NCBI RefSeq assembly: GCF_900176605.1
Contig: NZ_FXLP01000005.1
Span: forward strand, 744,001-808,000
Reading direction: 5' to 3'
Origin: Peptoniphilus vaginalis
Lineage (GTDB): Bacteria > Bacillota > Clostridia > Tissierellales > Peptoniphilaceae
DNA: 64,000 bases
This document shows positions 8,235 to 22,947 of this stretch, piece after piece. The notes beneath the pieces were generated by a model that was not told the DNA's origin, made no database searches, and worked only from the letters and a program-made list of their open reading frames with translations. Made by a program: the position numbers and the translations under genes. How positions within the stretch are numbered: the stretch's first letter is position 1; each line of letters begins with the position of its first letter.

Positions 8235-11200
8235 TTAATCTTCAGATTCATCGGATTCATCATCGTCTTCATAGTCACCGTCTTCGTCTTCATAGAAGTG
8301 ACTGTTTTCAAAAGACTCAACTTCATCAGTTGAAATTGTTCTGATTCCAATATTTGCAGTTCCAGTTTGTTCTATTAGTTCCTTTAATTCATCGTCGTCT
8401 GATTTTGTATTATTATCATCGATGTTATCAATCTTTGTTAGTTCATCTTCATCAACTTCAAGGTCGACTTCATTTCCTTTTTCATCAAGAACTTGAATTT
8501 CAAGAGCTAGTGCTTGAAGTTCTTTTATTAGAACCTTAAAGGATTCAGGAACTCCTGGTTGTGGAATATTTTCGCCCTTAACAATAGCTTCGTAAGTCTT
8601 AACACGACCAACGATATCGTCAGACTTAACTGTAAGCATTTCTTGTAGGGTATGGCTGGCACCATAGGCTTCTAAAGCCCAAACTTCCATTTCTCCAAAT
8701 CTTTGTCCACCGAATTGTGCCTTACCTCCAAGAGGTTGTTGTGTAACAAGTGAGTAAGGTCCAGTGGAACGAGCGTGGATCTTTTCATCAACCAAGTGGT
8801 GAAGTTTCAACATATACATGTAACCAACTGTTACAGGATGGTCGAATTCTTCTCCGGTTCTACCATCTCTTAGTTGAATTTTTCCATCTCTAGAATATCC
8901 AGCTTCTTCAAGTGTATCAAAAATGTCATTTTCATTAGCACCATCAAATACTGGTGTGGCAACGTGCCATCCAAGTTTTTTGGCAGCAAGTCCCAAGTGA
9001 ACTTCTAGTACTTGCCCAAGATTCATACGAGAAGGAACCCCAAGTGGGTTAAGAACAATTTGGATTGGCGTACCATCTGGCATGTAAGGCATATCTTCCT
9101 TTGGCATAACCCTAGAGATAACACCCTTGTTACCGTGACGACCACACATCTTATCTCCAACTTGAATCTTTCTCTTTGTAGCAACAAAGACTCTTACCAT
9201 TTCGTTAACACCTGGTTGAAGTTCGTCTCCTTCAGACCTGTTAAATGTCTTAACATCAACAACAATACCATGTTCACCATGAGGAAGTCTTAGGGAAGTA
9301 TCTCTTACTTCTCTTGCCTTTTCGCCAAAGATTGAACGAAGAAGTCTTTCTTCTGCAGAAAGTTCAGTTTCTCCCTTTGGAGTTACCTTACCAACTAGGA
9401 TATCTCCTGGTTTAACTTCTGCACCAATTCTTATAATACCTCTGTCATCAAGGTCCTTTAACATATCTTCCCCAACATTAGGGATGTCTCTTGTAATTTC
9501 TTCAGGTCCAAGTTTTGTATCTCTTGCTTCTGATTCGTATTCTTCAATGTGAAGTGAAGTTAATACATCGTCAATAACAAGCTCTTGGCTTACAAGCATG
9601 GCATCTTCGTAGTTATATCCTTCCCAGTTCATAAAGGCTATTAGGATATTTTTACCAAGAGCCATTTCTCCCATATCAGTTGATGGACCATCAGCAATGA
9701 TTTCGCCTGCTTCTACAAGGTCTCCTTCTTTGACAATAGGTCTTTGGTTAATTGTAGTTCCTTGGTTACCACCCATAAACTTGTGAAGTTTATAGTTGTC
9801 AATTCCCTTGTCAGATTCTCTTTCCACTTCAATGTGAACGGAATCAACTTTTTTAATTTTACCCTTGTTCTTAGAAACAATTACAACACCTGAGTCCTTT
9901 GCTGCTCTGTATTCAATCCCAGTTCCAACAACAGGAGCCTCAGTCTTTAATAGAGGCACTGCTTGACGTTGCATGTTGGCACCCATTAGGGCTCTGTTGG
10001 CGTCGTCGTTTTCCAAGAAAGGAATCATGGAAGTACCTACAGCAACAATTTGTTGAGGAGAAACGTCCATGTAGTTTACATCTTTAATGTCGAAAATATC
10101 GGCATTACCGCCATGACCTCTGGCAGCAATTCTATCTTCAACGAATCTATTATTTTCATCAAGTCTTTCGTCAGCTTGAGCAATGATTTGTTCGTACTCA
10201 ACGTCGGCAGTTAGATAATCAATTTGATCAGTTACAACTCCGTTAACAACCTTCCTATATGGAGTCTCAATAAATCCATAGTCATTGATTCTTGCGTAAG
10301 TTGTAAGTGATGTGATAAGTCCAATGTTTGGACCTTCTGGTGTCTCAATAGGACACATTCTTCCGTAGTGTGAATTATGGACGTCACGCACTTCAAATCC
10401 AGCTCTATCTCTGCTCAACCCACCAGGTCCTAGTGCAGATAACCTTCTCTTATGAGTTAATTCTGATAGAGGATTATTTTGGTCCATAAATTGTGAAAGT
10501 TGTGAAGAGCCAAAGAATTCTTTTATGGCTGCTGTAACAGGTCTTATGTTTATTAGTGATTGTGGTGTTGTTGCATCAACATCTTGAACAGTCATCCTTT
10601 CGCGGATAACTCTTTCCATTCTTGAAATACCAATTCTAAATTGGTTTTGAAGAAGTTCACCAACAGATCTAATTCTTCTATTCCCAAGATGGTCGATGTC
10701 GTCAACGGATCCCACGTTATTCATAAGTCCAAATTGATAATTTATACCAGCAATAATATCGTCGATTAAAATATTTTTTGGAGATAATTCTCTATGAGCC
10801 TTTACTAGCTCTTCCTTAAACTTTTCTGTGTTTTCAGAATATTCTTCATAAAGTTCATCAAAAAGTGGTCTATAAACTTTTTCTTTAAAGCCAAGTTCTT
10901 CCATATCGAAGTCTAGTTCATAGGCATCAACAAAAGTGAAGTTGTTACCAATTACTATTGTGTTTTCACTGGCATGTTCATAGTTTTCATCAGTTTTTAT
11001 TAGAACTTGGTTAACACCAGCTGCTTCAATCTTTTCAGCCTTTGCCCTATTTAGTAGTTCGCCAGCTTCTGCTAAGATTTCCCCAGTCATTGGGTCAACT
11101 ATGTCTTCAGCAGGTATATTGCCTTCAAGTCTTGCAGAAATTCCTAACTTCTTGTTGAATTTATATCTACCAACTTTAGCAAGGTCATATCTTCTATCGT

Positions 11201-11978
11201 CGAAGAACATATTCTCAAATAGTGATTGAGCTGAGTCAATAGTAGGTGGCTCGCCTGGTCTTAATTTTTTATAAATTTCAAGTAAAGCTTCATTCTTATT
11301 TGTAGTAGTATCTTTTTCAATTGTCTTTAGTACAGCTTCACTTTCTCCAATTACGTCCATAATCTCTTGGTTAGATTCAATACCAAGAGCTCTTAATAAG
11401 ATAGTAATTGGAATTTTTCTTGTCCTATCAATTCTTACATTGATAACGCCTTGAGCATCAGTTTCAAATTCAAGCCAAGCTCCCCTATTTGGTATAAGTG
11501 TTGCCGAATAGATTTTCTTACCTGTCTTGTCTCTTTCTTCCTTATAATATGCTCCTGGACTTCTTACAAGTTGTGAAACGACTACACGCTCTGCCCCATT
11601 TATTACAAATGTGCCAGTTGGTGTCATAAGTGGAAGGTCGCCCATAAAGACTTCTTGTTCCTTAACTTCGCCAGTTTCACTGTTAATAAGTCTTACCTTT
11701 GCCTTTAATGGCGCAGAATAATTTGTATCTCTCTGTTTAGATTCGTCTATATCATATTTGATTTCATCAGATAAATGATAGTCCACAAATTCTAAAATTA
11801 AATTTCCAGAGTAATCCTCGATAGGAGATACGTCATCAAAAACTTCCTTCAATCCTTCTTCAATCAACCATTTGTATGAAGAAGTCTGCACGTCAAGAAG
11901 ATTTGGTAGTGACATAACTTCGTCTACACGAGAAAAACTCATTCTCTCACGTTTCCCATATTTAACAGGATGTACCAT
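8235..11978 (-). CDS. rpoB: DNA-directed RNA polymerase subunit beta
   Basis: Second catalytic subunit of RNA polymerase, about 1247 residues. Diagnostic blocks are the rifampicin region with [20 protein letters not shown] and [16 protein letters not shown], then [17 protein letters not shown], and the C-terminal [20 protein letters not shown]. The ATG at 11978 ([12 protein letters not shown]) is preferred because AGGGTGA lies 8 nt upstream and homologues start this way; an in-frame GTG at 11990 would add four residues. The C-terminus has an extended acidic tail. Unusually, rplJ/rplL are not directly upstream; rpoB has its own promoter. Confidence 0.97.
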
Positions 11979-12061
11979 TAATTTTCTCACCCTAGCCTTT
12001 CAAATGAGTGTATCCAATTAGAGTCCAAATCACCACTCTAATCATTATTATGCAAATAGGT

Positions 12062-12090
12062 ATTTTATCATTTTTCCTGAAACTTTGCAA
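12062..12090 (-). promoter_or_regulatory. rpoBC promoter
   Basis: TTGCAA (12085-12090), 17-bp spacer, TAAAAT (12062-12067) read on the minus strand, about 80 bp upstream of rpoB and just after the terminator of the preceding gene. Confidence 0.7.
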
Positions 12091-12101
12091 GTTGTTTAAA
12101 T

Positions 12102-12136
12102 AAAAAAATCCTGCCAAAAGGCAGAATTCTTTTTTT
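12102..12136. terminator. Bidirectional terminator between the DsrE-like gene and rpoB
   Basis: Stem TCCTGCC / GGCAGAA with an AAAA loop is flanked by A7 on one side and T7 on the other. It ends minus-strand transcription from the DsrE-like gene, whose stop codon it touches, and separates that gene from rpoBC. Confidence 0.85.
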
Positions 12137-12458
12137 AAAGTCTAATGTATGCGTAACCTTCATTTTGAAGTTTTACGATTTTTGTTATTACTAGGTCCTC
12201 AACTTTTATTTCTGAAGGAATTAGATCTGGTGTAAGCCTATTTTCTTCTAATCCTCTCTTACCAATTGTAATATTTACCTTTGGGTTTCCTATGATACCT
12301 TGGAAGTCCACTCCTGAATATCTGTTAAATAATGCAGCAGCTTTAGCCATTGCAATTATTTCAACTTGGATGTCTTCAAAGCTATCTAACAAGTCTCTTA
12401 CGTTTGATATTACAGAAGACCATTTGTCTTGTTCTACTACGTGAAAAATTACCTTCAT
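12135..12458 (-). CDS. DsrE/DsrF-like family protein
   Basis: A 107-residue soluble alpha/beta protein resembling the DsrE-like (COG1416) group: MKVIFHVVEQDKW at the N-terminus, then VEIIAMAKAAALFNRYSG and a C-terminal strand-rich segment. DsrE-fold proteins often take part in sulfur-relay or sulfur sensing, but this one shows no cysteine at a catalytic position, so its function is not assignable. The start at ATG 12458 has AAGGAG 8 nt upstream; a GTG three codons earlier is less well placed. It lies 72 bp after the MurJ-like gene start region on the upstream side of rpoB and ends at a strong terminator. Confidence 0.75.
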   Translation of the reverse strand: MKVIFHVVEQDKWSSVISNVRDLLDSFEDIQVEIIAMAKAAALFNRYSGVDFQGIIGNPKVNITIGKRGLEENRLTPDLIPSEIKVEDLVITKIVKLQNEGYAYIRL

Positions 12459-12529
12459 ATGTATCACTCCTTACTTAGTTAATATTTTACACTAATAAAG
12501 AGAAAAAGGGAAGCTTATTAGAGAAATTC

Positions 12530-14029
12530 CTACTTTTTCAATATTATTTTTAAAATTTCTTTAACTTCATCAACCTTTAAAACAATAAGAAGGATAAGAT
12601 AAATTCCACCAGCTACAATTATAGAAAGAAGAAGAGATAAATTTATGCTAAGACTTTTTGTAAGCACTTCATAAACTAATTTTGATCCAAGAGCCATAAG
12701 TCCTGATGAAATTATAATCTTTATTAAGTTCATCAAAAGCTTCTTGTCAAAAACATTTCCTATTAATCTTATTGAAGAGAAGTACATTGTAAGAGCTCCC
12801 ACAATAAAAGAAATTGAAGTTGCAAGGGCAATTCCTCTTATACCAATTAGTTTTGAAAGTAAAAGTGCAAGGGCAACATTGACTCCAAGTATAATTACTG
12901 AATTATAAACTGGAGTCTTGTTGTCGCCAAGAGAATAAAAAGCTCTGGAAATAATTTCACGAACTCCAATACCTATTACACCAAAGGCAAAGAAGGATAA
13001 AACTGTGGCAGTTATCTTGGCATCTTCAACAGAAAATTCTCCTCCAACAAACAAAAGATTTACTATCGGGAAGGAAAAAATGTAAAGACCAAAGGCTGCC
13101 GGCACTACAAGTATTAGCATATTGGAAAGACCTTCTGACAAGGCAGATTTTAAATTTACCAAGTCCTTTTTGGATCCAAACTTGGCAAGCTTAGGATAAG
13201 TTGCAGTGATAATTGAAGTTACAACTATTCCCGTTACAAAACTTTGTAGCTTGTAAGAATAATTTAAAATTGAAATCCCACCAGCATAGGCTCCCGATGC
13301 AAAAGAACGTGAAATAATAAAGTTTATCTCAATGGCAGAAGTTGAAATCAAAATTGGAAGTATAGAAGTGAATAAGTTCTTAATGTCTTTGTTGAAATCA
13401 ATTTTTAAAGAATGCTTGTAGCCAAGCTTCTTAATTGGTCTGATAAAAATTCCATATTGAAGGACAAAAGCTAAAAGAATTCCCACTGCAAGATAATTTA
13501 TTCCCATCTTGTAGGCAAGGCCCATGGAAATAATAATTATGATGTTCATAATTATTGAGTGAAGAACAGAAATTACAAACTTTTCATGGATTTGTAAGTA
13601 GGCCTTATAAATTGAACTCACTGCAGTGACAGCAATTGATAGCATAGCAAGTCTTGATACAAAAATTGCAAGCTCAAGCTTTTCTCCAGAGAAGCCTTCA
13701 GCCATTAACTTGACAAGAGGTCTTGCAAACACAATTGAAAGTATTGTCACAAAAGTAAAGGCTACAAAGATAATGTTAGAGAGATTGGCAGTGAACTTGT
13801 CGGCAAATTTTTTATCCTCTCTCTCCCTTATGTAGTCGTACATAGGAATGAATCCATTAGCAACTGCACCACTAATGACATTGGTAAAAGTCATAGGAAG
13901 TTGAAAGGCAATTAAAAATATATCTGCTACCATACCAACTCCAAAGAAGTAAGCAAGGGCCTTCTCCCTCAAGAGTCCAAAGACCTTGGAAAGGATTGTG
14001 ATTATCATAAGTATATAAGAAGTTTTCAT
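12530..14029 (-). CDS. murJ: MurJ-type lipid II flippase (MATE/MviN superfamily)
   Basis: Polytopic membrane protein of 499 residues with about 14 hydrophobic helices, matching the MviN/MurJ family that flips lipid-linked peptidoglycan precursors across the membrane. The N-terminal helix-turn block (ITILSKVFGLLREKALAYFF, about 10-29) is the family signature with its conserved R-E-x. A Shine-Dalgarno AAAGGAG precedes the ATG. A terminator for the upstream ATPase gene lies just before it, so murJ probably has its own promoter. Members of this family also export other polysaccharides. Confidence 0.88.
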   Translation of the reverse strand: MKTSYILMIITILSKVFGLLREKALAYFFGVGMVADIFLIAFQLPMTFTNVISGAVANGFIPMYDYIREREDKKFADKFTANLSNIIFVAFTFVTILSIVFARPLVKLMAEGFSGEKLELAIFVSRLAMLSIAVTAVSSIYKAYLQIHEKFVISVLHSIIMNIIIIISMGLAYKMGINYLAVGILLAFVLQYGIFIRPIKKLGYKHSLKIDFNKDIKNLFTSILPILISTSAIEINFIISRSFASGAYAGGISILNYSYKLQSFVTGIVVTSIITATYPKLAKFGSKKDLVNLKSALSEGLSNMLILVVPAAFGLYIFSFPIVNLLFVGGEFSVEDAKITATVLSFFAFGVIGIGVREIISRAFYSLGDNKTPVYNSVIILGVNVALALLLSKLIGIRGIALATSISFIVGALTMYFSSIRLIGNVFDKKLLMNLIKIIISSGLMALGSKLVYEVLTKSLSINLSLLLSIIVAGGIYLILLIVLKVDEVKEILKIILKK

Positions 14030-14044
14030 TTTTTCTCCTTTAAA

Positions 14045-14071
14045 TAAAAAAACTTGGGTTAAACCCCAAGT
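14045..14071 (-). terminator. Intrinsic terminator of the DUF4143 ATPase gene
   Basis: Minus-strand stem ACTTGGG / CCCAAGT followed by T7, about 55 bp after the ATPase stop codon and directly before murJ. Confidence 0.85.
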
Positions 14072-14124
14072 AATTATATAGTTAATTAATTTTATTTACA
14101 AGCTCACTTCTATTGTGAAAAAAA

Positions 14125-15333
14125 TTATTTCTCACTCTCTAACAAGAAATCAATTATGTTTTTGTGAATGATGCCTCTTTGTGAAAAATCAAGTTTATCC
14201 ATAGAGAGGACATACTTTGGATAATTGTCTTTTATTAAATCATAAACTCCAAACTCCCTATCCCTAGTTTTTTCATTCTCCATTAGATAGGCAACTTGAA
14301 AATAAAAAATCTCCTCTCCCTTTTTTGCTACAAAATCAATTTCTCTATCTTTTACTTTTCCAATTTTTACATCAAATCCTCGTGACAAAAGTTCAATGTA
14401 GACAATATTTTCTAAAGTTCTTTCAATATCTTTCACATTATAAAAACCCATGGACTGTCTAAATCCATGATCTGTCAAATAATATTTTTCATCAACTTTT
14501 AAAAGTTTTTTGCCTCCTAAATCAAATCTTGGAACTTTTTTTAAGACAAAGGCTCTACTGCAATATTCCAAATAATTTAAAACAGTATCTACTGAAATAT
14601 TTCTATTTTCGCTCTTTAAATAATTTTTTATGGCACTAGCAGAAAAAGTTGCCCCAATATTTTGCATTGCAAAGCTGAGAATCCTATTAAAAATATCCAC
14701 GTCTCTTAAATTATTATAATTTAAAACATCCTTTACAAGTACTGTGTTGTAAATATCATTTAAGTATTTTTGAGAAACTTCTTCTTCGAGATTGAAATAT
14801 TTTAAACCAGGCATACCACCAATTTTTATAAATTTTTGAAACAATTCATCTAGGTTTAAATTTAAATTTTTATAAATTTGAGAAAACTCATCAAAGGTAA
14901 AGGGTTGGATTTCAAATTCAACATATCTACCTGCAAGAAGTGTCGCCAAGTCACCAGAAATTAATTTTGAATTGGATCCAGTAATGTAAATGTCTGAATC
15001 AAAGCTCACCCTTAAAGCATTTATGACATTCTCCCAATCTTCGACTAGCTGAATTTCATCAAAGAAAAAATAAACTTTTCCCTCTTTGTCCTTCAAATTT
15101 TCATTTAAATAATTTTTTAATAACGCTGCATCCTTAATTTCAAAAAATTCAAAGGATTCAAAATTCATATAAATTTTATTCTCTTCAGGAATATCCTTTA
15201 AGACATCATCCTTGATAATATTTAGAATAGTAGATTTCCCAACACGCCTCATGCCAGTCATAATTTTTACAATTGGTTTATCAATAAAATTTTTAATTCT
15301 TTCTATGTACTTAGCTCTAAAAATATAATCCAT
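14125..15333 (-). CDS. AAA ATPase with DUF4143 domain (COG1373 family)
   Basis: A 402-residue protein with an N-terminal P-loop ATPase domain: Walker A GMRRVGKST at residues 27-35, Walker B VYFFFDEIQ around residue 90, then a winged-helix region and a C-terminal DUF4143 domain. The last part (REIDFVAKKGEEIFYFQVAY) resembles a restriction-endonuclease-like core. Family members are often accessory genes of unknown role. The ATG at 15333 is chosen because GGAGGG lies 7 nt upstream; a longer reading to 15390 would run through the promoter. Two identical 16-bp palindromes overlap the promoter. Confidence 0.85.
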   Translation of the reverse strand: MDYIFRAKYIERIKNFIDKPIVKIMTGMRRVGKSTILNIIKDDVLKDIPEENKIYMNFESFEFFEIKDAALLKNYLNENLKDKEGKVYFFFDEIQLVEDWENVINALRVSFDSDIYITGSNSKLISGDLATLLAGRYVEFEIQPFTFDEFSQIYKNLNLNLDELFQKFIKIGGMPGLKYFNLEEEVSQKYLNDIYNTVLVKDVLNYNNLRDVDIFNRILSFAMQNIGATFSASAIKNYLKSENRNISVDTVLNYLEYCSRAFVLKKVPRFDLGGKKLLKVDEKYYLTDHGFRQSMGFYNVKDIERTLENIVYIELLSRGFDVKIGKVKDREIDFVAKKGEEIFYFQVAYLMENEKTRDREFGVYDLIKDNYPKYVLSMDKLDFSQRGIIHKNIIDFLLESEK

Positions 15334-15351
15334 TTGAATCCCTCCATTCAT

Positions 15352-15406
15352 TTCGAGTATACTCGAATCAAATTTATTTTTCAAGTACATTTCGAGTATA
15401 CTCGAA
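15352..15406 (-). promoter_or_regulatory. Promoter with twin 16-bp palindromic operators
   Basis: Two exact copies of the perfect palindrome TTCGAGTATACTCGAA lie at 15352-15367 and 15391-15406, 39 bp apart. The minus-strand promoter is TTGAAA (15379-15384), 17 bp, TATACT (15356-15361), so the -10 box is the centre of the proximal palindrome and the distal copy lies just upstream of the -35. This is the geometry of a repressor operator pair. The binding factor is not known. Confidence 0.75.
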
Positions 15407-15493
15407 ATGATTTAATATTTTTTATTTATTTCTATTATAATCGAAAGTCTTGATTTTTATTTGTGATAGCTTATAAGATCATGTCACGCACAA

Positions 15494-15523
15494 ATAAAAA
15501 AGCCTTGAGCCTAAACTCAAAGC
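15494..15523 (-). terminator. Intrinsic terminator of the two-component/ABC cluster
   Basis: Minus-strand stem AGCTTTGAG / CTCAAGGCT (one G-U pair) followed by T6, downstream of the small membrane protein gene. Confidence 0.85.
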
Positions 15524-15569
15524 TTGTGATTTTATATGAAACTGTTAATTAGCATAACGATAGGGAAAA

Positions 15570-15794
15570 TTATAATTTAATTAACAAAAAATTTAATATC
15601 CCAAACAAAACTGACTTATCTTTGATTGCGAAGACAAGACCAATAAGTCCTATTATCCTGCAGACAAATAAACTCGTAAGACCTGTGGGTCTTAGGTTTG
15701 TAAAATTTCCAAAAATATCCACTGGCAATAAATAAGAAATTATAAAAACTCCTATACCAAGGAAAAATAAATACTTGCTAATATTCTTTCTCAT
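15570..15794 (-). CDS. Small membrane protein of an ABC transporter cluster
   Basis: A 74-residue protein with two clear hydrophobic segments (about 7-25 and 41-60). No family was recognised. It starts 9 bp after the permease gene and is the last gene before the terminator, so it probably belongs functionally to the response regulator / kinase / ABC unit, for example as an accessory subunit. That role is inferred from position only. Confidence 0.65.
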   Translation of the reverse strand: MRKNISKYLFFLGIGVFIISYLLPVDIFGNFTNLRPTGLTSLFVCRIIGLIGLVFAIKDKSVLFGILNFLLIKL

Positions 15795-15803
15795 GATTAC
15801 CTC

Positions 15804-18281
15804 CTAGTCAAATCCTCTTATTAAATCAATTGGGTCAATCTTTAAAATCCCTTTTAAGGTTAAATTGTAGATTAATATAATTATACCATAAATCAAAATT
15901 GCAAAAGCAAGGAAATATTTATATTCAAAATAAGACAACAAAATTTTTATATCCATTGTTGGTGAAATTTTTGCAATTATAAATAAAGAAGCAAAACTTA
16001 CTATTAAAACTATTGCCAGAGATTTAATTTCTTCTAATATGAAATCCCTTATAAATTTATTTTTAAGTTCTTCCTCATCTATTCCACAAGACATTAAAGA
16101 TCCAATTTCTTTTTTCCTTGCCATTAAACTTAAATTAATGGAAGAATATCCATTTGTTATATTTAAAATGAAAATTATACTTGCAATAGAAATTATCATA
16201 AGTCCAAAAGTTTTTACGTCTTTCATCCGATTTGCTTCTTCATCTTTTCTTGTAGTTAAATTATAAGTTTCATTATAGGCAATGGAAGAATCTAATCTAT
16301 CTTTAATTTCATTCTTTATATCGTCTAACTTATTTTCATCAACTTGCATTGAGAGTTCGTAGGTGTTTCTTCTCAAGTCATTGTTGTTTTTTAAATAATA
16401 TTTATTCCACTCATCTAAAAGTTTAAAGTATGTGTCAAAGTCAACATATAAATACACATAGAAAGGTAGCCTTCTTTGCCTAAAGTCCTTTGTGTCATCA
16501 ATTAGTTTATCTACCTTGATTGAATAATTGTAATCTTTATCTTCTTTTATAGAGTAATTTAAAATATCCATATTTTCAAAATATTTTGTTGTTTCTGATC
16601 CATCAATTGGTGCATTTGGATTAACTTGGACCCTATTTAATAGCAAAACTTCTCCCTTTTTGCCACCTATCTTTTCAAAAGTTTGGTCATCTAAGGCCGT
16701 AATAATTCCATCTAGATAAAAATCTTCGCCACCATCATAATATTTTCGCATTTTTTCATCTAAATTAAAATGCTTAAACTCATCTGAATAATTTTGATCC
16801 TTACTAAGAGAAATATATTTTTCAGTTGAAAGGAAGGCTCTGTCATTTTTTGTAGTCTTCATTACATCTTTTAATACATCAGGAACTTCAGCCTCATTTG
16901 AATGAATTAGTATATTTATATTCCTATTATAAGTATAAGTATTTTTCACCCTATTGTACTTTGCCATAGAGAAAACTATCAAAAAAATTGAGACAATTAT
17001 CATTCCAATTGCAGAAATATATCTCTGAGAAGAAATAGTTTTTAAATTATTTATCTTTAATTCTTTCCAAATATCTTTATTCCTCTTTAATTTTATATTT
17101 TTGTCATTAAAGTTGCCCTTTATACCATCAATTATATTTATCTTTGCGATTTTTTTAGCTGGAGCAAGTATTGCTATAAAAATTATAAAAAAGCAAATTA
17201 ATAAAACTACAAGTGAAAGCCTTGGCGAAAATTCTATAAACTCAAATTTTTCTTCTTTCTCAACAATTTTTTGAAGGCCAAGATAGAGGAGGTTGATTCC
17301 TCCATATCCGAAAATATGTCCTAAAACTATTGGTAAAAGAGAAATTTTTAATCCATCTTTTAAAAGCAATTTATAAATTTGATAATCTGTTGATCCAATG
17401 GACTTGTACATTGAAACTTCTCTTATCTTTCTTAGTCCCCAAACTGTAAAAATGTTTTTTACAAAAAATATAAAAATAAGGATTGTAACAAAAATTAAAA
17501 GAGTGTCTACAATCACCTGCCTATTTTGTTGTAAAAGACTTCCATCCATATTATAGTAATCTTTCATTATCTCGCTAAATTCAAGTTCTACTTTATCTTT
17601 ATTCAATGCAGATGCAAGATCTTTTTCTAAATTATCTTTATTATTGTAGGCTTTTCTAAAATTATGAAATCTTACAAAGCTATTGGTCTTTGCATCCTTT
17701 CCTATGGCAGTAGAAGCATAAAAAATCTTCATATTCTCATTGTAAAGATTTCTTGTGAGACCACTTATTACATATTCCTTAATATCTTTTCTTGCAAATT
17801 CTTCATCTTTAGTAACACTTGAAACTGCCTTTATAAGCTTTCCATCAACCAATCTATTTCCAAATTCTACTTTTATCTTATCCCCAATTTTTAAATTTTC
17901 TTTTTTTGCAAGACTTTTTGGTATGGTAATTTCGTTATCTTTTGTGGCAAAGCTTCCCTCTTTTAACATATTATCTTCTAACATCTTATTAAAACCCTGG
18001 TCTGTGTAATTTACCACTAAGACATTTTGAGATAGCTTGGCAGAATTATTTTCTACTGCAACTTCTCCCACTTCTTTAATGTTTTTTATTTCTTTTAATT
18101 TACTTGAGTCACCAGAAACTGTATCAGGTATAATTCTAGCATCATAAATGGATCTGTTCCTAAAATATTCATAATTGAACTTATTATTTACATATCCAAA
18201 GTAAACACAAAATGTAAAGAAAATTGCAGTTATAAAAAACGAAAGGGAAATTGAGAGATTTTTCTTATTCATTTTTCTCAT
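15804..18281 (-). CDS. ABC transporter permease, FtsX/MacB-like
   Basis: An 825-residue permease with an N-terminal membrane helix (about 11-29), a large extracellular domain (about 30-255), a block of three helices (about 260-375) and, after a second helix at about 422-440 and another extracellular domain, a C-terminal three-helix FtsX block. This duplicated FtsX layout is typical of MacB/LolCE-type and peptide-resistance permeases. Its start overlaps the end of the ABC ATPase gene by 17 bp, so the pair is translationally coupled. The upstream two-component genes suggest a role in sensing or resisting an envelope-active peptide; the substrate is unknown. Confidence 0.88.
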   Translation of the reverse strand: MRKMNKKNLSISLSFFITAIFFTFCVYFGYVNNKFNYEYFRNRSIYDARIIPDTVSGDSSKLKEIKNIKEVGEVAVENNSAKLSQNVLVVNYTDQGFNKMLEDNMLKEGSFATKDNEITIPKSLAKKENLKIGDKIKVEFGNRLVDGKLIKAVSSVTKDEEFARKDIKEYVISGLTRNLYNENMKIFYASTAIGKDAKTNSFVRFHNFRKAYNNKDNLEKDLASALNKDKVELEFSEIMKDYYNMDGSLLQQNRQVIVDTLLIFVTILIFIFFVKNIFTVWGLRKIREVSMYKSIGSTDYQIYKLLLKDGLKISLLPIVLGHIFGYGGINLLYLGLQKIVEKEEKFEFIEFSPRLSLVVLLICFFIIFIAILAPAKKIAKINIIDGIKGNFNDKNIKLKRNKDIWKELKINNLKTISSQRYISAIGMIIVSIFLIVFSMAKYNRVKNTYTYNRNINILIHSNEAEVPDVLKDVMKTTKNDRAFLSTEKYISLSKDQNYSDEFKHFNLDEKMRKYYDGGEDFYLDGIITALDDQTFEKIGGKKGEVLLLNRVQVNPNAPIDGSETTKYFENMDILNYSIKEDKDYNYSIKVDKLIDDTKDFRQRRLPFYVYLYVDFDTYFKLLDEWNKYYLKNNNDLRRNTYELSMQVDENKLDDIKNEIKDRLDSSIAYNETYNLTTRKDEEANRMKDVKTFGLMIISIASIIFILNITNGYSSINLSLMARKKEIGSLMSCGIDEEELKNKFIRDFILEEIKSLAIVLIVSFASLFIIAKISPTMDIKILLSYFEYKYFLAFAILIYGIIILIYNLTLKGILKIDPIDLIRGFD

Positions 18282-18945
18282 CTCCCACTACTTTCCCATC
18301 AACAATTGTTATTACTCTTTCTGCCTCTAGGGCTATAGACTCATCATGAGTTATTACTATAATTGTCTGTTTTAAAGTCCTATTAAAATATTTTAAAATT
18401 TCAATTATTTCTCTTGAATTTTCTCGATCCAAGTTTCCCGTCGGCTCATCGGCAAGTACAAGAGACGGAGAATAGATAAGACTTCTTGCTATGGCAACCC
18501 TTTGTTGCTGGCCTCCTGATAATTCACTTGGAAAAGAATCCAACTTGTTCTCTATTCCTAGCTTTCTAACTATATCTAGTAGAGATTCCTCATTGATTTT
18601 TCTCTTATCAAGTTTTAGGGGCAACTCAATGTTATGCCTAACAGTTAAATTTGGGATTAAATTATAAAATTGATAAATTAGCCCTACTTTTCTCCTCCTA
18701 AAAAGTGCTAATTCTTTTGATGTATATTTTGAGATGTCATTGCCGTCTATAAATATTTTCCCTGAACTTGGATTGTCCACTCCACCCAACAAGTGAAGAA
18801 GAGTTGACTTGCCTGATCCACTTGGTCCAACAATTGCAATAAATTCTCCCTTTTCTATTTTTAAATTAACATTATCAATTGCTTTTACAAGATTTTCTCC
18901 ACTTCCATAAGTTTTTGATAAATTTTCAGTTCTAACAATTTCCAT
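18265..18945 (-). CDS. ABC transporter ATP-binding protein (MacB/LolD-type)
   Basis: A 226-residue ATPase that energises the downstream permease. Walker A GPSGSGKST at about 40-48, Q-loop YQFYNLIP near 91, signature LSGGQQQRVAIARSL at about 142, Walker B LVLADEPTGNLD at about 162, and the H-loop VITHD. Closest by motif to the LolD/MacB/BceA group. It follows the kinase gene by 47 bp with a Shine-Dalgarno GAGGGAGG; a TATTAT/TTATAA-like element in that gap could provide a separate regulated promoter. Confidence 0.93.
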   Translation of the reverse strand: MEIVRTENLSKTYGSGENLVKAIDNVNLKIEKGEFIAIVGPSGSGKSTLLHLLGGVDNPSSGKIFIDGNDISKYTSKELALFRRRKVGLIYQFYNLIPNLTVRHNIELPLKLDKRKINEESLLDIVRKLGIENKLDSFPSELSGGQQQRVAIARSLIYSPSLVLADEPTGNLDRENSREIIEILKYFNRTLKQTIIVITHDESIALEAERVITIVDGKVVGDEKNE

Positions 18946-18992
18946 ATGTACCTCCCTCTATTTGTCTTTATAATAAAGGGTTAAAATGACTT

Positions 18993-19856
18993 TTAAGTGA
19001 CATTGTAAAATTTAATTTTAAAAATCGCACCATCTTTTCCATTTTCCACAGAGATATCTCCATTGTTTGCCTCAACAATAGATTTTGCCATGGCAAGTCC
19101 TATGCCAAATCCCTTAGAGTCAGGACTTTTATAAAATCTTTCAAATATTTTTTTAAAGTTTTCTTTCTTAATACCTCCACCGTCATCTTCAATTGTTATC
19201 TCTGTATAAATTGGATTTTTATTTGTAGAAATTTTAATTTTTGTAAGATCATCAAGGCTTAAGGCATTCTTTATAATATTTATTAAAGCTTCAGAAGTCC
19301 AATAATAATCAACTTTAACCTCATAATCCTCGTAGTCACAAATAACCTTCACCTTTTTTTCTTCAATTGATTTCCTCAAAATATCCAAAGCATAGTCAAG
19401 TATTTCTGAAATCAAAACCTCTCTCTTCTCCATCTTGTCTATATTTGCATCAAGGCTAGATAGCTTTAATAAAATATCAGCAAGAGAGTTAAGCCTTTCG
19501 AGTTGGAGGTCAAGCCCCTCAAGCTCTTTTTTATTTTCTTCAGTCTTATCAATTGTTTCCAAGTCAAAGACCATTGAAGTAATTGGAGTCTTTATTTGAT
19601 GGGCAATGTCTTCTAGGTTTTGCCTTTGCTTTTTTGAATTTATCTCAAGGCTTTCTCTCGCCTCAACAAGTTCTATAAAAATCTTATAAATCTTATCTTC
19701 CAGTATTGAAAAGTCATCTTGAACCATGGGAATAGAATAGTTCTTTTCTCCCAATCTATCTATAAGATTTTCCAAGTCCTTAATCCTTTTCTTTTGTCTT
19801 CTCTTTAAAAAATAATAAAGTAGCAATAAGCTCGCAGGGTAAAATAAATAAATCAT
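18993..19856 (-). CDS. Sensor histidine kinase
   Basis: A 287-residue membrane kinase with a very short N-terminal membrane segment (about 2-16) and no extracellular sensor domain, so stimulus detection may depend on the partner transporter, as in Bce-type systems. The phosphoacceptor is His86 in EDIAHQIKTPITS. The ATPase part shows the N-box NIIKNALS, G1 DDGGGI and G2 GFGIGLAMAKSIVE. Its ATG overlaps the response regulator stop (TGATG), indicating translational coupling. Confidence 0.92.
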   Translation of the reverse strand: MIYLFYPASLLLLYYFLKRRQKKRIKDLENLIDRLGEKNYSIPMVQDDFSILEDKIYKIFIELVEARESLEINSKKQRQNLEDIAHQIKTPITSMVFDLETIDKTEENKKELEGLDLQLERLNSLADILLKLSSLDANIDKMEKREVLISEILDYALDILRKSIEEKKVKVICDYEDYEVKVDYYWTSEALINIIKNALSLDDLTKIKISTNKNPIYTEITIEDDGGGIKKENFKKIFERFYKSPDSKGFGIGLAMAKSIVEANNGDISVENGKDGAIFKIKFYNVT

Positions 19857-20503
19857 CAGTCCATCCTATAACCTATTCCACGTATTGTCTTAATAATATC
19901 TCTGCCACTTTTGTCTCTTATTCTTTTAATAGTAGCAGTAAGTGTATTATCATTTACAAACTTTTCTCGCCTATCCCAAAATCTCTCAAGTAAAAAATCC
20001 CTAGTAAAAATTCTATTGGGATTACTTATAAATAATTTCATAACTTCAAATTCTAATAAAGTTAAATCTAGTTTTTTATCTTTATAATAAAAGCTTCCTT
20101 CATTATTATTTAGACTTAAGTCTTTAAAGCTAATAATATCATCTTTAACGAGAGCAGTTCTAAGAGTTTTATCAATTCTTGCTCTTAAAATAGAAAGCTT
20201 AAAGGGTTTTGTAATATAATCATCAGCTCCATTGTCTAGGGCTCTAACGATAAATTTCTCATCGTTTTTTACTGTTGTGATTATTACTCTAACATCATTT
20301 TCTCTCAAAGTCTTCAACAAACCGATCCCATCTTTATCAGGCAAATTTATATCTAAGATTGCCAAGTCAAAAGAATTATTTATTTTTATCTTTGCTTCTT
20401 CAAAGCTTTTACGAGTTTCCACTTCAAAATCATTTTTTGATAAGTAGGACTCAATCCCTCTTGATAAAATTTCATCGTCTTCTATTAATAATATTTTTTT
20501 CAT
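19856..20503 (-). CDS. OmpR-family response regulator
   Basis: A 215-residue regulator with a receiver domain (acidic pair Asp9/Asp10, phosphoacceptor Asp51 in LAILDINLP, Lys99 in DYITKPF) and a C-terminal winged-helix DNA-binding domain (GIGYRMD end). First gene of the cluster RR-HK-ABC-permease-small membrane protein, all on the minus strand. It probably activates the cluster, perhaps through the short gap before the ABC ATPase gene. Confidence 0.93.
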   Translation of the reverse strand: MKKILLIEDDEILSRGIESYLSKNDFEVETRKSFEEAKIKINNSFDLAILDINLPDKDGIGLLKTLRENDVRVIITTVKNDEKFIVRALDNGADDYITKPFKLSILRARIDKTLRTALVKDDIISFKDLSLNNNEGSFYYKDKKLDLTLLEFEVMKLFISNPNRIFTRDFLLERFWDRREKFVNDNTLTATIKRIRDKSGRDIIKTIRGIGYRMD

Positions 20504-20599
20504 TTAATCACCTAACACAATCTTGTAAACAAATTCTATCACACTTTAGTTTTTAAAAGAATTCTTAATCATTTTGGGTTCTTTTAAATCTTCCCAACA

Positions 20600-20624
20600 A
20601 AAAAGCACCAGCTTTTGCCAGTGC
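20600..20624 (-). terminator. Intrinsic terminator of the FMN-binding lipoprotein gene
   Basis: On the minus strand an 8-bp stem (GCACTGGC / GCTGGTGC, two G-U pairs) with an AAAA loop is followed by T6. Confidence 0.85.
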
Positions 20625-20655
20625 GTGTGATTTTAAATCTTTTAATTTTTAAAAA

Positions 20656-21141
20656 TTATTTTGCTTGGTTGATTGCATCATTTGCTGCTTCAACGAATTG
20701 GTTGTAGGATTGTGTTGCGCCACTTACTGCTTCAACTTCTTCTACTGAACCCTTTTCTGTTAATTCTTTTCCGTAAGTTTGTGAAGCTTCAAGTGTCATT
20801 TGTGCTGTCTTGTGTCCTTCTTCGCCAGCTTCTTTACCGTAGTCTTCTCCCTTTTCACTTCCGTCTTTTTGAAGATTCTTAACTTCAGTTTCAGAAATTT
20901 TTCCATCAGCTACTGTAATTGTAACTTCCATGTGTCCACCGAAATCATCTTCTGATGACTTACCTGTGTAAGTTCCGTCTTTTAATGCTGCAGCTTCATC
21001 ACTTGTCTTTGCATTATTTGTTGCTTCTACCTTTGTAGAGTTTTCTTTAGCTGCGTTTTCTTTTGCATCATTTTTTGCTCCGCAGCCAACTAGTGTTAGT
21101 GATAAAAGAGCTACTGATGCTAGTGTAATTTTCTTATTCAT
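20656..21141 (-). CDS. FMN-binding domain lipoprotein
   Basis: A 161-residue secreted lipoprotein: signal peptide with lipobox LVGC (Cys20), a low-complexity Ala/Lys/Asn linker (about 21-50), then an FMN_bind domain ending in the flavinylation motif VSGATQSYNQF. Related single-domain lipoproteins such as Listeria PplA carry covalent FMN and serve extracellular electron transfer. The intact SGAT motif fits an ApbE substrate, although no apbE lies in the window. It is transcribed alone, between a hairpin upstream and a terminator downstream. Confidence 0.87.
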   Translation of the reverse strand: MNKKITLASVALLSLTLVGCGAKNDAKENAAKENSTKVEATNNAKTSDEAAALKDGTYTGKSSEDDFGGHMEVTITVADGKISETEVKNLQKDGSEKGEDYGKEAGEEGHKTAQMTLEASQTYGKELTEKGSVEEVEAVSGATQSYNQFVEAANDAINQAK

Positions 21142-21159
21142 TTTTCCTCCTAAAATAAT

Positions 21160-21197
21160 TTAATCCTCTCTTATTAAGGGTAACAAAAGAGGATTAA
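21160..21197 (-). terminator. Inverted repeat after sixA, possible terminator
   Basis: A perfect 10-bp inverted repeat (TTAATCCTCT / AGAGGATTAA) with an 18-bp loop lies between sixA and the lipoprotein gene, followed on the minus strand by an A/T-rich tract containing TTTT. It may end the glycolytic operon or act in the lipoprotein leader. Confidence 0.5.
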
Positions 21198-21217
21198 GAT
21201 TTCAAAATATTTATTTT

Positions 21218-22947
<1,730 letters not shown>

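Follow-up and report, generated by a model that had tools for sequence, protein, structure and literature searches.

The locus considered here raises a simple question: which protein reads the two perfect palindromes lying over the promoter of an ATPase gene of Peptoniphilus vaginalis? The initial annotation of the window (here, the whole 64,000-nucleotide stretch of contig NZ_FXLP01000005.1 that was analysed) proposed tight repression, with either the ATPase itself or a factor coded elsewhere as the possible repressor. The parts of the promoter region are as follows.

15340-15345, minus strand: ribosome-binding site GGAGGG, preceding ATG 15333
15352-15367: putative proximal operator, a perfect 16-bp dyad TTCGAGTATACTCGAA that contains the -10
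15356-15361, minus strand: -10 TATACT, within the proximal dyad, with a spacer of 17 to the -35
15379-15384, minus strand: -35 TTGAAA, between both exact copies and 6 bp from the distal one
15388-15409: putative distal operator, a perfect 22-bp dyad with the core TTCGAGTATACTCGAA at 15391-15406
15430-15445: putative third operator copy, degenerate (3 mismatches), 39 bp beyond the distal copy

The two 16-bp palindromes reported initially were found again at 15352-15367 and 15391-15406, and the promoter is placed as had been described, with the TATACT box (15361-15356) inside the proximal copy and the distal copy flanking the -35 TTGAAA at 6 bp. The start-to-start step between the two exact copies is 39 bp, the same step leads to the third copy, and this degenerate copy is also present in two relatives (L010 and L012). 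Allowing up to 3 mismatches, the palindrome has 3 matches in the window compared with a mean of 0.26 in 100 shuffled sequences. TTGAAA-17-TATACT was the top minus-strand promoter match preceding the gene (region 14000-15850; 10/12 agreement with the consensus). Translation starts at ATG 15333, and the mechanically called open reading frame begins further out, within the operator region. As judged from these letters, repression would follow from the position of the -10 box inside the palindrome.

A widespread repeat away from promoters had been named as the observation that would count against an operator, and a search of the genome for further copies had been proposed. Across the whole genome (1,877,211 bases) the exact TTCGAGTATACTCGAA occurs at two sites only, both at the ATPase promoter. 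Sites with up to 3 mismatches number 7, compared with 5 for the palindrome pattern reversed, and the weaker matches are therefore at chance level. That the palindromes arose by chance, or act as an RNA hairpin or terminator that has no DNA-binding partner, is scarcely credible: the distal dyad is indeed terminator-like on the plus strand and the genome is AT-rich, but, given a -10 placed within the proximal dyad, transcription would be expected to begin downstream of both exact copies, and chance would not be expected to give the layout in 98 homologues, the covariation and the held-out result described below.

The coding features that bear on the identity of the binding protein are the following.

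14125-15333, minus strand: AAA_14-DUF4143 ATPase gene (402 aa, P0001), PDC-S01 candidate defence (Pfam, PADLOC)
14473-14700, minus strand: codons of the predicted winged helix, residues 212-287 (structure model; coordinates counted from ATG 15333)
14554-14592, minus strand: codons of the predicted recognition helix, residues 248-260, with D249 at 14589-14587 (structure model)
14128-14472, minus strand: codons of the PD-(D/E)XK-like C-terminal domain, residues 288-402 (fold matches)

The protein was matched by the Pfam models AAA_14 (PF13173; E-value 8.3e-33, 113.6 bits against a cut-off of 27) and DUF4143 (PF13635; 4.4e-15, 56.2 bits against a cut-off of 28.1), being the sole DUF4143 match of the genome, and by the PADLOC model PDLC04787 (PDC-S01) with an E-value of 9.8e-150 over residues 2-400. 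PF01637, which we take to be the family of SSO1545-type ATPases, was absent from the 5 Pfam families matching at E-values up to 1. There was no match in NCBIfam at E-values up to 1 and none in the PDB when the single sequence was used as query; Phrogs returned four weak matches only, of unknown function (E-value 0.047 or worse), and a scan of viral contigs returned one relative, 27% identical.

A structure model built from 12 sequences (mean pLDDT 89.0) comprises an ATPase domain, a winged helix (helices 212-224, 232-241 and 248-260, then strands) and a C-terminal domain. The top fold matches of residues 1-297 were 2FNA (Z 17.9, rmsd 3.1, 265 residues aligned) and 2QEN (Z 17.6, rmsd 3.2, 266 aligned), followed by NLR and CED-4 structures, and by fold the protein has the layout of the STAND/SSO1545 type, an AAA+ core and then a winged helix. 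At the sequence level a profile of 12 family members reached 2FNA only at an E-value of 0.0013. The C-terminal part modelled alone (pLDDT 88.5) matched 1Y88 (Z 9.8, rmsd 3.3, 100 aligned) and then Can2/Card1, restriction enzymes and Hjc (best Foldseek E-value 9.2e-4). E308, D333 and Q346 are kept at 99-100% in 235 relatives. The canonical PD-(D/E)XK catalytic lysine belongs to an E/QxK motif; two positions after Q346, at position 348, the same 235 relatives have A (42%), S (29%), T (15%) or C (13%) and no lysine; the activity of the nuclease-like domain may be lost or altered.

Homologous genes, the upstream regions of which had also been proposed for inspection, were found to carry different dyads that occupy the same position with the same spacing. 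Visual inspection of 30 loci from the bacterial family showed doubled dyads upstream of the gene that are specific to the lineage. Doubled dyads were also sought de novo in the 215 bp upstream of each gene against dinucleotide shuffles (z>=4), and among loci from the protein search only they were detected for 37/87 family genes and 4/73 controls (Fisher p 4e-8). None of the 44 ORFs of at least 150 aa in the window had an array at z>=4 upstream of its mechanical start; the ATPase gene itself was missed in this test because its mechanical start falls inside the array. Searches by protein or by murJ yielded 328 homologues; upstream of 131 of these a significant dyad pair (z>=4) was present, with a spacing of 39-41 bp in 98 of the 131 (40 bp in 58, 39 bp in 28 and 41 bp in 12), where about 4.5 of 131 would be expected by chance (3/87 spacings). 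Control upstream regions, taken as one per locus from the longest other ORF and possibly overlapping coding sequence, had a pair in 3/97, none at 39-41 bp, and in 1/97 when the finder was restricted to that spacing. The remaining 197/328 homologues had no significant pair, so that the layout is either not universal or not always detectable.

The sequence of the dyads varies between clades and lineages, and their place and spacing are constant, archaeal members included. A second group of relatives (L023-L035, L194, L219 and L220) has other dyads about 67-79 bp apart (6/131 pairs) with a promoter-like stretch between them. Among 107 genes of the clean set that have arrays, TATA stands at 89/214 dyad centres, and for 35% of the 107 a third copy one more 39-41 bp step away scored above the 95th percentile of null offsets. 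In 43 bacterial arrays with a TATA centre in the proximal dyad, the mean match to TTGACA at the predicted offset of -25 was second best (2.63; mean over offsets 1.77, sd 0.41), the best offset being -37 (2.72), which is read as lying inside the distal dyad.

Covariation between protein and dyad was analysed on a clean set limited to genes obtained through protein or murJ searches, 236 of 270 distinct genes (231 testable, 106 with arrays), by comparing 351 protein columns with half-site positions -7 to -3 over 70 clusters at 70% identity. Residue 249, located near the N-terminus of the predicted recognition helix, and position -6 formed the top pair by z (14.5; the next was I40 with 12.5 and 0.29 bit) and had the highest information excess among the 22 pairs listed (0.65 bit; next L96, 0.41 bit). 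In the 70 clusters the base at -6 was C in 12, A in 4 and T in 2 where residue 249 is D or E; G in 9 and A in 1 for K; G in 5 and A in 4 for R; T in 6 and A in 2 for N; and A in 12, T in 9, C in 3 and G in 1 for other residues. With 30 clusters at 50% identity the pair was fifth by z (4.2) and again had the top information among the pairs listed (0.58 bit). In a raw ranking of matched pairs it was 6th of 3366, the five above it being nearly invariant columns.

The association was also present when proteins of comparable relatedness were compared. At 35-45% protein identity the overlap at -6 was 0.55 for pairs with the same residue 249 (271 pairs) and 0.20 for pairs of different class (2935), and at 45-55% it was 0.70 (128 pairs) and 0.24 (700), whereas at the other half-site positions between 35 and 55% identity the gap was at most 0.16 and its direction not constant. 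At 55-70% identity (132 and 46 pairs) the values at -6 were 0.60 and 0.42, and position -5 separated more (0.67 and 0.22). Among disjoint pairs the overlap at -6 was 0.28 for 38 that differ in class and 0.55 for 42 with the same residue (p 1.4e-4), the mean protein identities being 0.51 and 0.57, respectively. At least 20 changes of residue-249 class are needed on a tree from which the winged helix was excluded; tree-independent pairs went in the expected direction (2.8 to 0.2, 4.3 to 0.1, 2.7 to 0.1 and 4.3 to 0.5) and were too few for individual significance. Similarity of the whole operator followed the identity of protein regions weakly (Spearman 0.08-0.24 for the half-site core, best for helices a2 and a3) in a comparison of 49 arrays, many of which had been chosen by a TTCGA pattern scan.

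The link between D249 and TTCGA half-sites was first noticed in a set that included loci selected for TTCGA. Among 124 genes from outside that scan, TTCGAN6TCGAA (at most 1 mismatch, within 230 bp upstream) preceded 11/15 genes with D249 and 1/109 others, and without three loci in genomes reached through the scan (L232, L241 and L244) it preceded 9/12 of the D249 genes.

A rule was fixed before new loci were collected, in which D or E at residue 249 predicts C at -6, K or H predicts G, R predicts G or A, N or Q predicts T, and other residues predict A or T. The held-out set comprised 110 new loci with 109 genes, 99 of them less than 90% identical to earlier ones, 97 testable and 44 with arrays; a second source, the family of G280, gave one new locus only. 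The rule was obeyed in 30/44 arrays (permuted 16.0, sd 3.0; p 0.0002, the lowest value that the 5000 permutations run could give, 1000 having been foreseen), in 25/36 clusters (permuted 13.0, sd 2.8) and in 17/24 clusters less than 60% identical to any training gene (permuted 9.4, sd 2.2; p 0.0012). Read at -7, -4 or -3 of the full held-out set it did no better than permuted, and at -5 there was some signal (19 compared with 13.2, sd 2.8). It broke in 14/44 arrays, namely 7/13 with E249, 2/2 with N249, 2/2 with T249, 2/5 with K249 and 1/11 with D249. In 5/7 of the E249 exceptions C stands at -5 and the dyad is shorter by two. Five E249 loci (L438 and L440-L443) have STETIYNY-type helices together with a dyad shorter by two, of the TTCGATATATCGAA type, and C at -5.

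Since residue 249 predicts a letter of the dyad in many relatives, we consider the dyads to be the ATPase's own operators, through which it would repress its own promoter, with a probability of about 0.8; binding itself is deduced from the covariation. The operator overlaps the gene's own promoter and covaries, with exceptions, with the predicted DNA-reading residue of the gene's own product. The mechanism we infer comprises binding, repression, oligomer contact, ATP coupling and a defence role. Two winged-helix recognition helices, supplied by a dimer or by a dimeric unit within a larger oligomer, would occupy the TTCGA half-sites of each dyad, where residue 249 would read the base pair lying six positions away from the centre. 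As the proximal dyad covers the -10 and the -35 falls between the two dyads, their occupancy would exclude RNA polymerase and thereby give negative autoregulation. The fixed spacing of 39-41 bp suggests contact between adjacent dimers, probably by way of the AAA+/STAND-type ATPase domain, and as this distance is not a whole number of helical turns the complex would be twisted or flexible. Nucleotide state or a sensed signal could link release of the DNA with induction of the gene and with the switching on of the nuclease-like domain.

The same promoter geometry bears on the sign of the regulation. MalT and IniR are STAND regulators that act as activators, and the ATPase could by this precedent bind the dyads and activate its own promoter; we regard this as highly improbable, given that a -10 within the proximal dyad and a -35 between the dyads is the typical position of a repressor site and that a -35/-10 pair of this quality (10/12) is good enough to work unaided.

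With regard to the two sources of repression originally offered, the evidence favours the protein itself and disfavours a factor from elsewhere, on account of the private site, the dyads of homologues at the same spacing and the covariation with residue 249. A host repressor or activator coded elsewhere would have precedents in the separate regulators that run many defence genes, as described in the available portions of reports on WYL-domain proteins (PMC9122601), RptR (PMC12255303) and CapK/CapS (PMC13373217), and arrays that have no adjoining gene also speak for it. Such a regulator is nevertheless very unlikely, because the exact site has no other copy in the genome, sites differ between paralogues of the same genome and follow the residue 249 of each ATPase, and the TTCGA type at 39-41 bp accompanies the gene across several bacterial phyla and an archaeon. 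Half-sites of same-genome paralogues were no more alike (0.40, n = 31 pairs) than those of random genes (0.41), which argues against a shared host regulator. The entropy of residue 249 is 3.28 bit compared with 0.47 bit for the adjoining, near-invariant T250; a fast-changing residue beside a constant one would fit selection for private addresses among paralogues.

Arrays were also collected irrespective of genes by scanning species genomes for pairs of TTCGAN6TCGAA sites separated by 8-38 bp, which gave at least 119 stretches. Among the 119 listed, whose titles include Bacteroidales, a spirochaete, Firmicutes and a Thermoplasmata archaeon, a family gene lay within the stretch in 13, all 13 having a start-to-start spacing of 39-41 bp; this spacing was found in 28 of the stretches listed, and none of the other 91 had a family gene. 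In one further case (L098) the family gene lies just beyond the stretch (seen in G094), which brings the count to 14/28 among the stretches listed. The doubled sites that accompany a gene thus all keep the 39-41 bp spacing, but some arrays of that kind are geneless. Four doubled or tripled arrays with 40-bp steps (L057, 2216-2271; L118, 5047-5102; L129, 5685-5740; L134, 1179-1274) look like true arrays that have no adjoining gene; in 3/4 of their genomes there was no homologue at an E-value of 1e-20, and one genome had two elsewhere. Among the remaining stretches at 39-41 bp, some belong to another type or stop at the array itself (L142). The geneless TTCGA arrays would be either scars or sites regulated from elsewhere.

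The genus of the window shows how scars might come about. A murJ-like neighbour was present in 14/14 genus genomes searched, and an ATPase gene 87-100% identical to that of the window adjoins it in 5/14, one of the five being broken by a frame break near the N-terminus with its dyads intact (L011, in G022). The layout, the -35/-10 and the 39-bp spacing are kept in the genus orthologues and also in a gene of 69% identity from a different locus. Three geneless genomes retain leftover dyads upstream of murJ (L267, L272 and L269; one dyad in G071, two in G052 and two in G088), and in the murJ-side stretch of the other six geneless genomes the dyad pattern was not found. Arrays can therefore outlive the gene, and this may explain the geneless arrays elsewhere.

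The gene also appears to move. Two distant genes, 69% and 67% identical, have TTCGA arrays in different surroundings (L012 and L227), which points to movement of the gene, possibly with its upstream stretch as a mobile unit. Transposon ends were considered and rejected, since these two loci share nothing with the window beyond the gene and its preceding stretch. Relatives occur on 243 plasmid records (175 from Acinetobacter) and 18 phage records, and in five plasmid or phage records the neighbours include recombinases, Fic proteins and a toxin-antitoxin pair. Around the window gene (10000-22000) no neighbourhood of defence genes was found; the neighbours, as judged from their ORFs, are presumably an RNA polymerase subunit, a MurJ-like protein, an ABC transporter, a two-component pair and enolase. 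Between the array and the ABC transporter permease lies a small membrane-protein-like ORF of 74 aa (15570-15794, minus strand), which is kept in L010. The minus-strand row at 15804-20503 (ABC permease, ABC ATPase, histidine kinase and response regulator) we take to resemble a peptide-resistance module.

These observations also bear on whether the array might primarily be a working site of the ATPase, iteron-, partition- or exchange-like as for Orc1/Cdc6 and plasmid initiators, with control of the promoter as a by-product. The fold near Orc1/Cdc6 and STAND proteins, the third copies that are commoner at a further 39-41 bp step than at other steps, the genes on plasmid and phage records and the arrays that outlive the gene in three genus genomes would suit such a role. 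We nonetheless judge it unlikely, as the arrays directly precede the gene, a -35-like word stands at the right distance in the bacterial TATA-centred arrays (a weak argument), and the window gene is chromosomal, beside murJ in 5/14 genus genomes, and has no partner genes.

An extension of the autorepressor reading in which the array is more than an operator is put forward tentatively, and taken jointly its parts are on balance doubtful. Each ATPase would form a guarding nucleoprotein complex on its own array of 40-bp spacing, with a private DNA address that the first turn of its recognition helix specifies, and binding would silence both the gene and the nuclease-like domain. Disturbance by an invader, through changes in DNA or nucleotides or through a competing site, would release and arm the complex, and paralogues would diversify their addresses to provide several single-gene switches per cell, in bacteria and archaea.

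PDC-S01 is a candidate system only, reported in the available portion of its description as the fourth most common defence across prokaryotes and as an ATPase fused to PD-(D/E)XK (PMC12988326). The putative private operator and its specificity residue are the first testable handle found for this family, covering the DNA bound, switching on by mutation of the array, and a residue to swap, and the family's protein-DNA pairs form a natural set from which winged-helix specificity could be learned. The gene, a very common antiviral candidate, would keep itself switched off, and in this STAND-like ATPase sensor, repressor and effector may be one polypeptide.

The window ATPase and PDC-S01 belong to the same protein family; the portion of the PDC-S01 description available (PMC12988326) treats abundance and phylogeny, operator or regulation being absent from it, and the window gene stands among housekeeping genes. 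We found no mention of operators for the AAA_14-DUF4143/PDC-S01 family in the open-licence literature. A plasmid-borne DUF4143 member of Thermus thermophilus, TT_P0211, is given with a 6.6-fold change in a plasmid-presence table within the part of the report available (PMC4406477). The archaeal AAA+ ATPases SSO1545 and PABY2304 (2FNA and 2QEN) are the best structural matches and have the ATPase and winged helix in common with the window protein, at about 20% identity, and the window protein has no PF01637 match. IniR is described, in the accessible part of its report, as an SSO1545-like regulator (PMC5760070). Orc1/Cdc6 (2QBY; Foldseek E-value 3.3e-7, Z 13.6, rmsd 9.5) likewise combines AAA+ and winged helix, but unlike Orc1/Cdc6 on origin DNA the sites of the window lie over a promoter and have no replication context. 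STAND regulators and immune receptors (MalT, CED-4, plant NLRs and Avs5) have the ATPase-winged-helix core in common by fold. In NLR-type proteins the winged helix is mostly a regulatory part, and MalT has a separate DNA-binding domain, whereas the winged helix of the window ATPase would itself read DNA. Rx1, a fold relative, binds DNA according to the portion of its report available (PMC4599002). RptR and the BrxR/CapW-type WYL regulators, as far as the accessible portions of their descriptions extend, act from direct repeats or palindromes over a defence promoter, as here, but they are separate regulator proteins, whereas at this locus the ATPase itself would be the repressor, with a site that changes along with its recognition helix.
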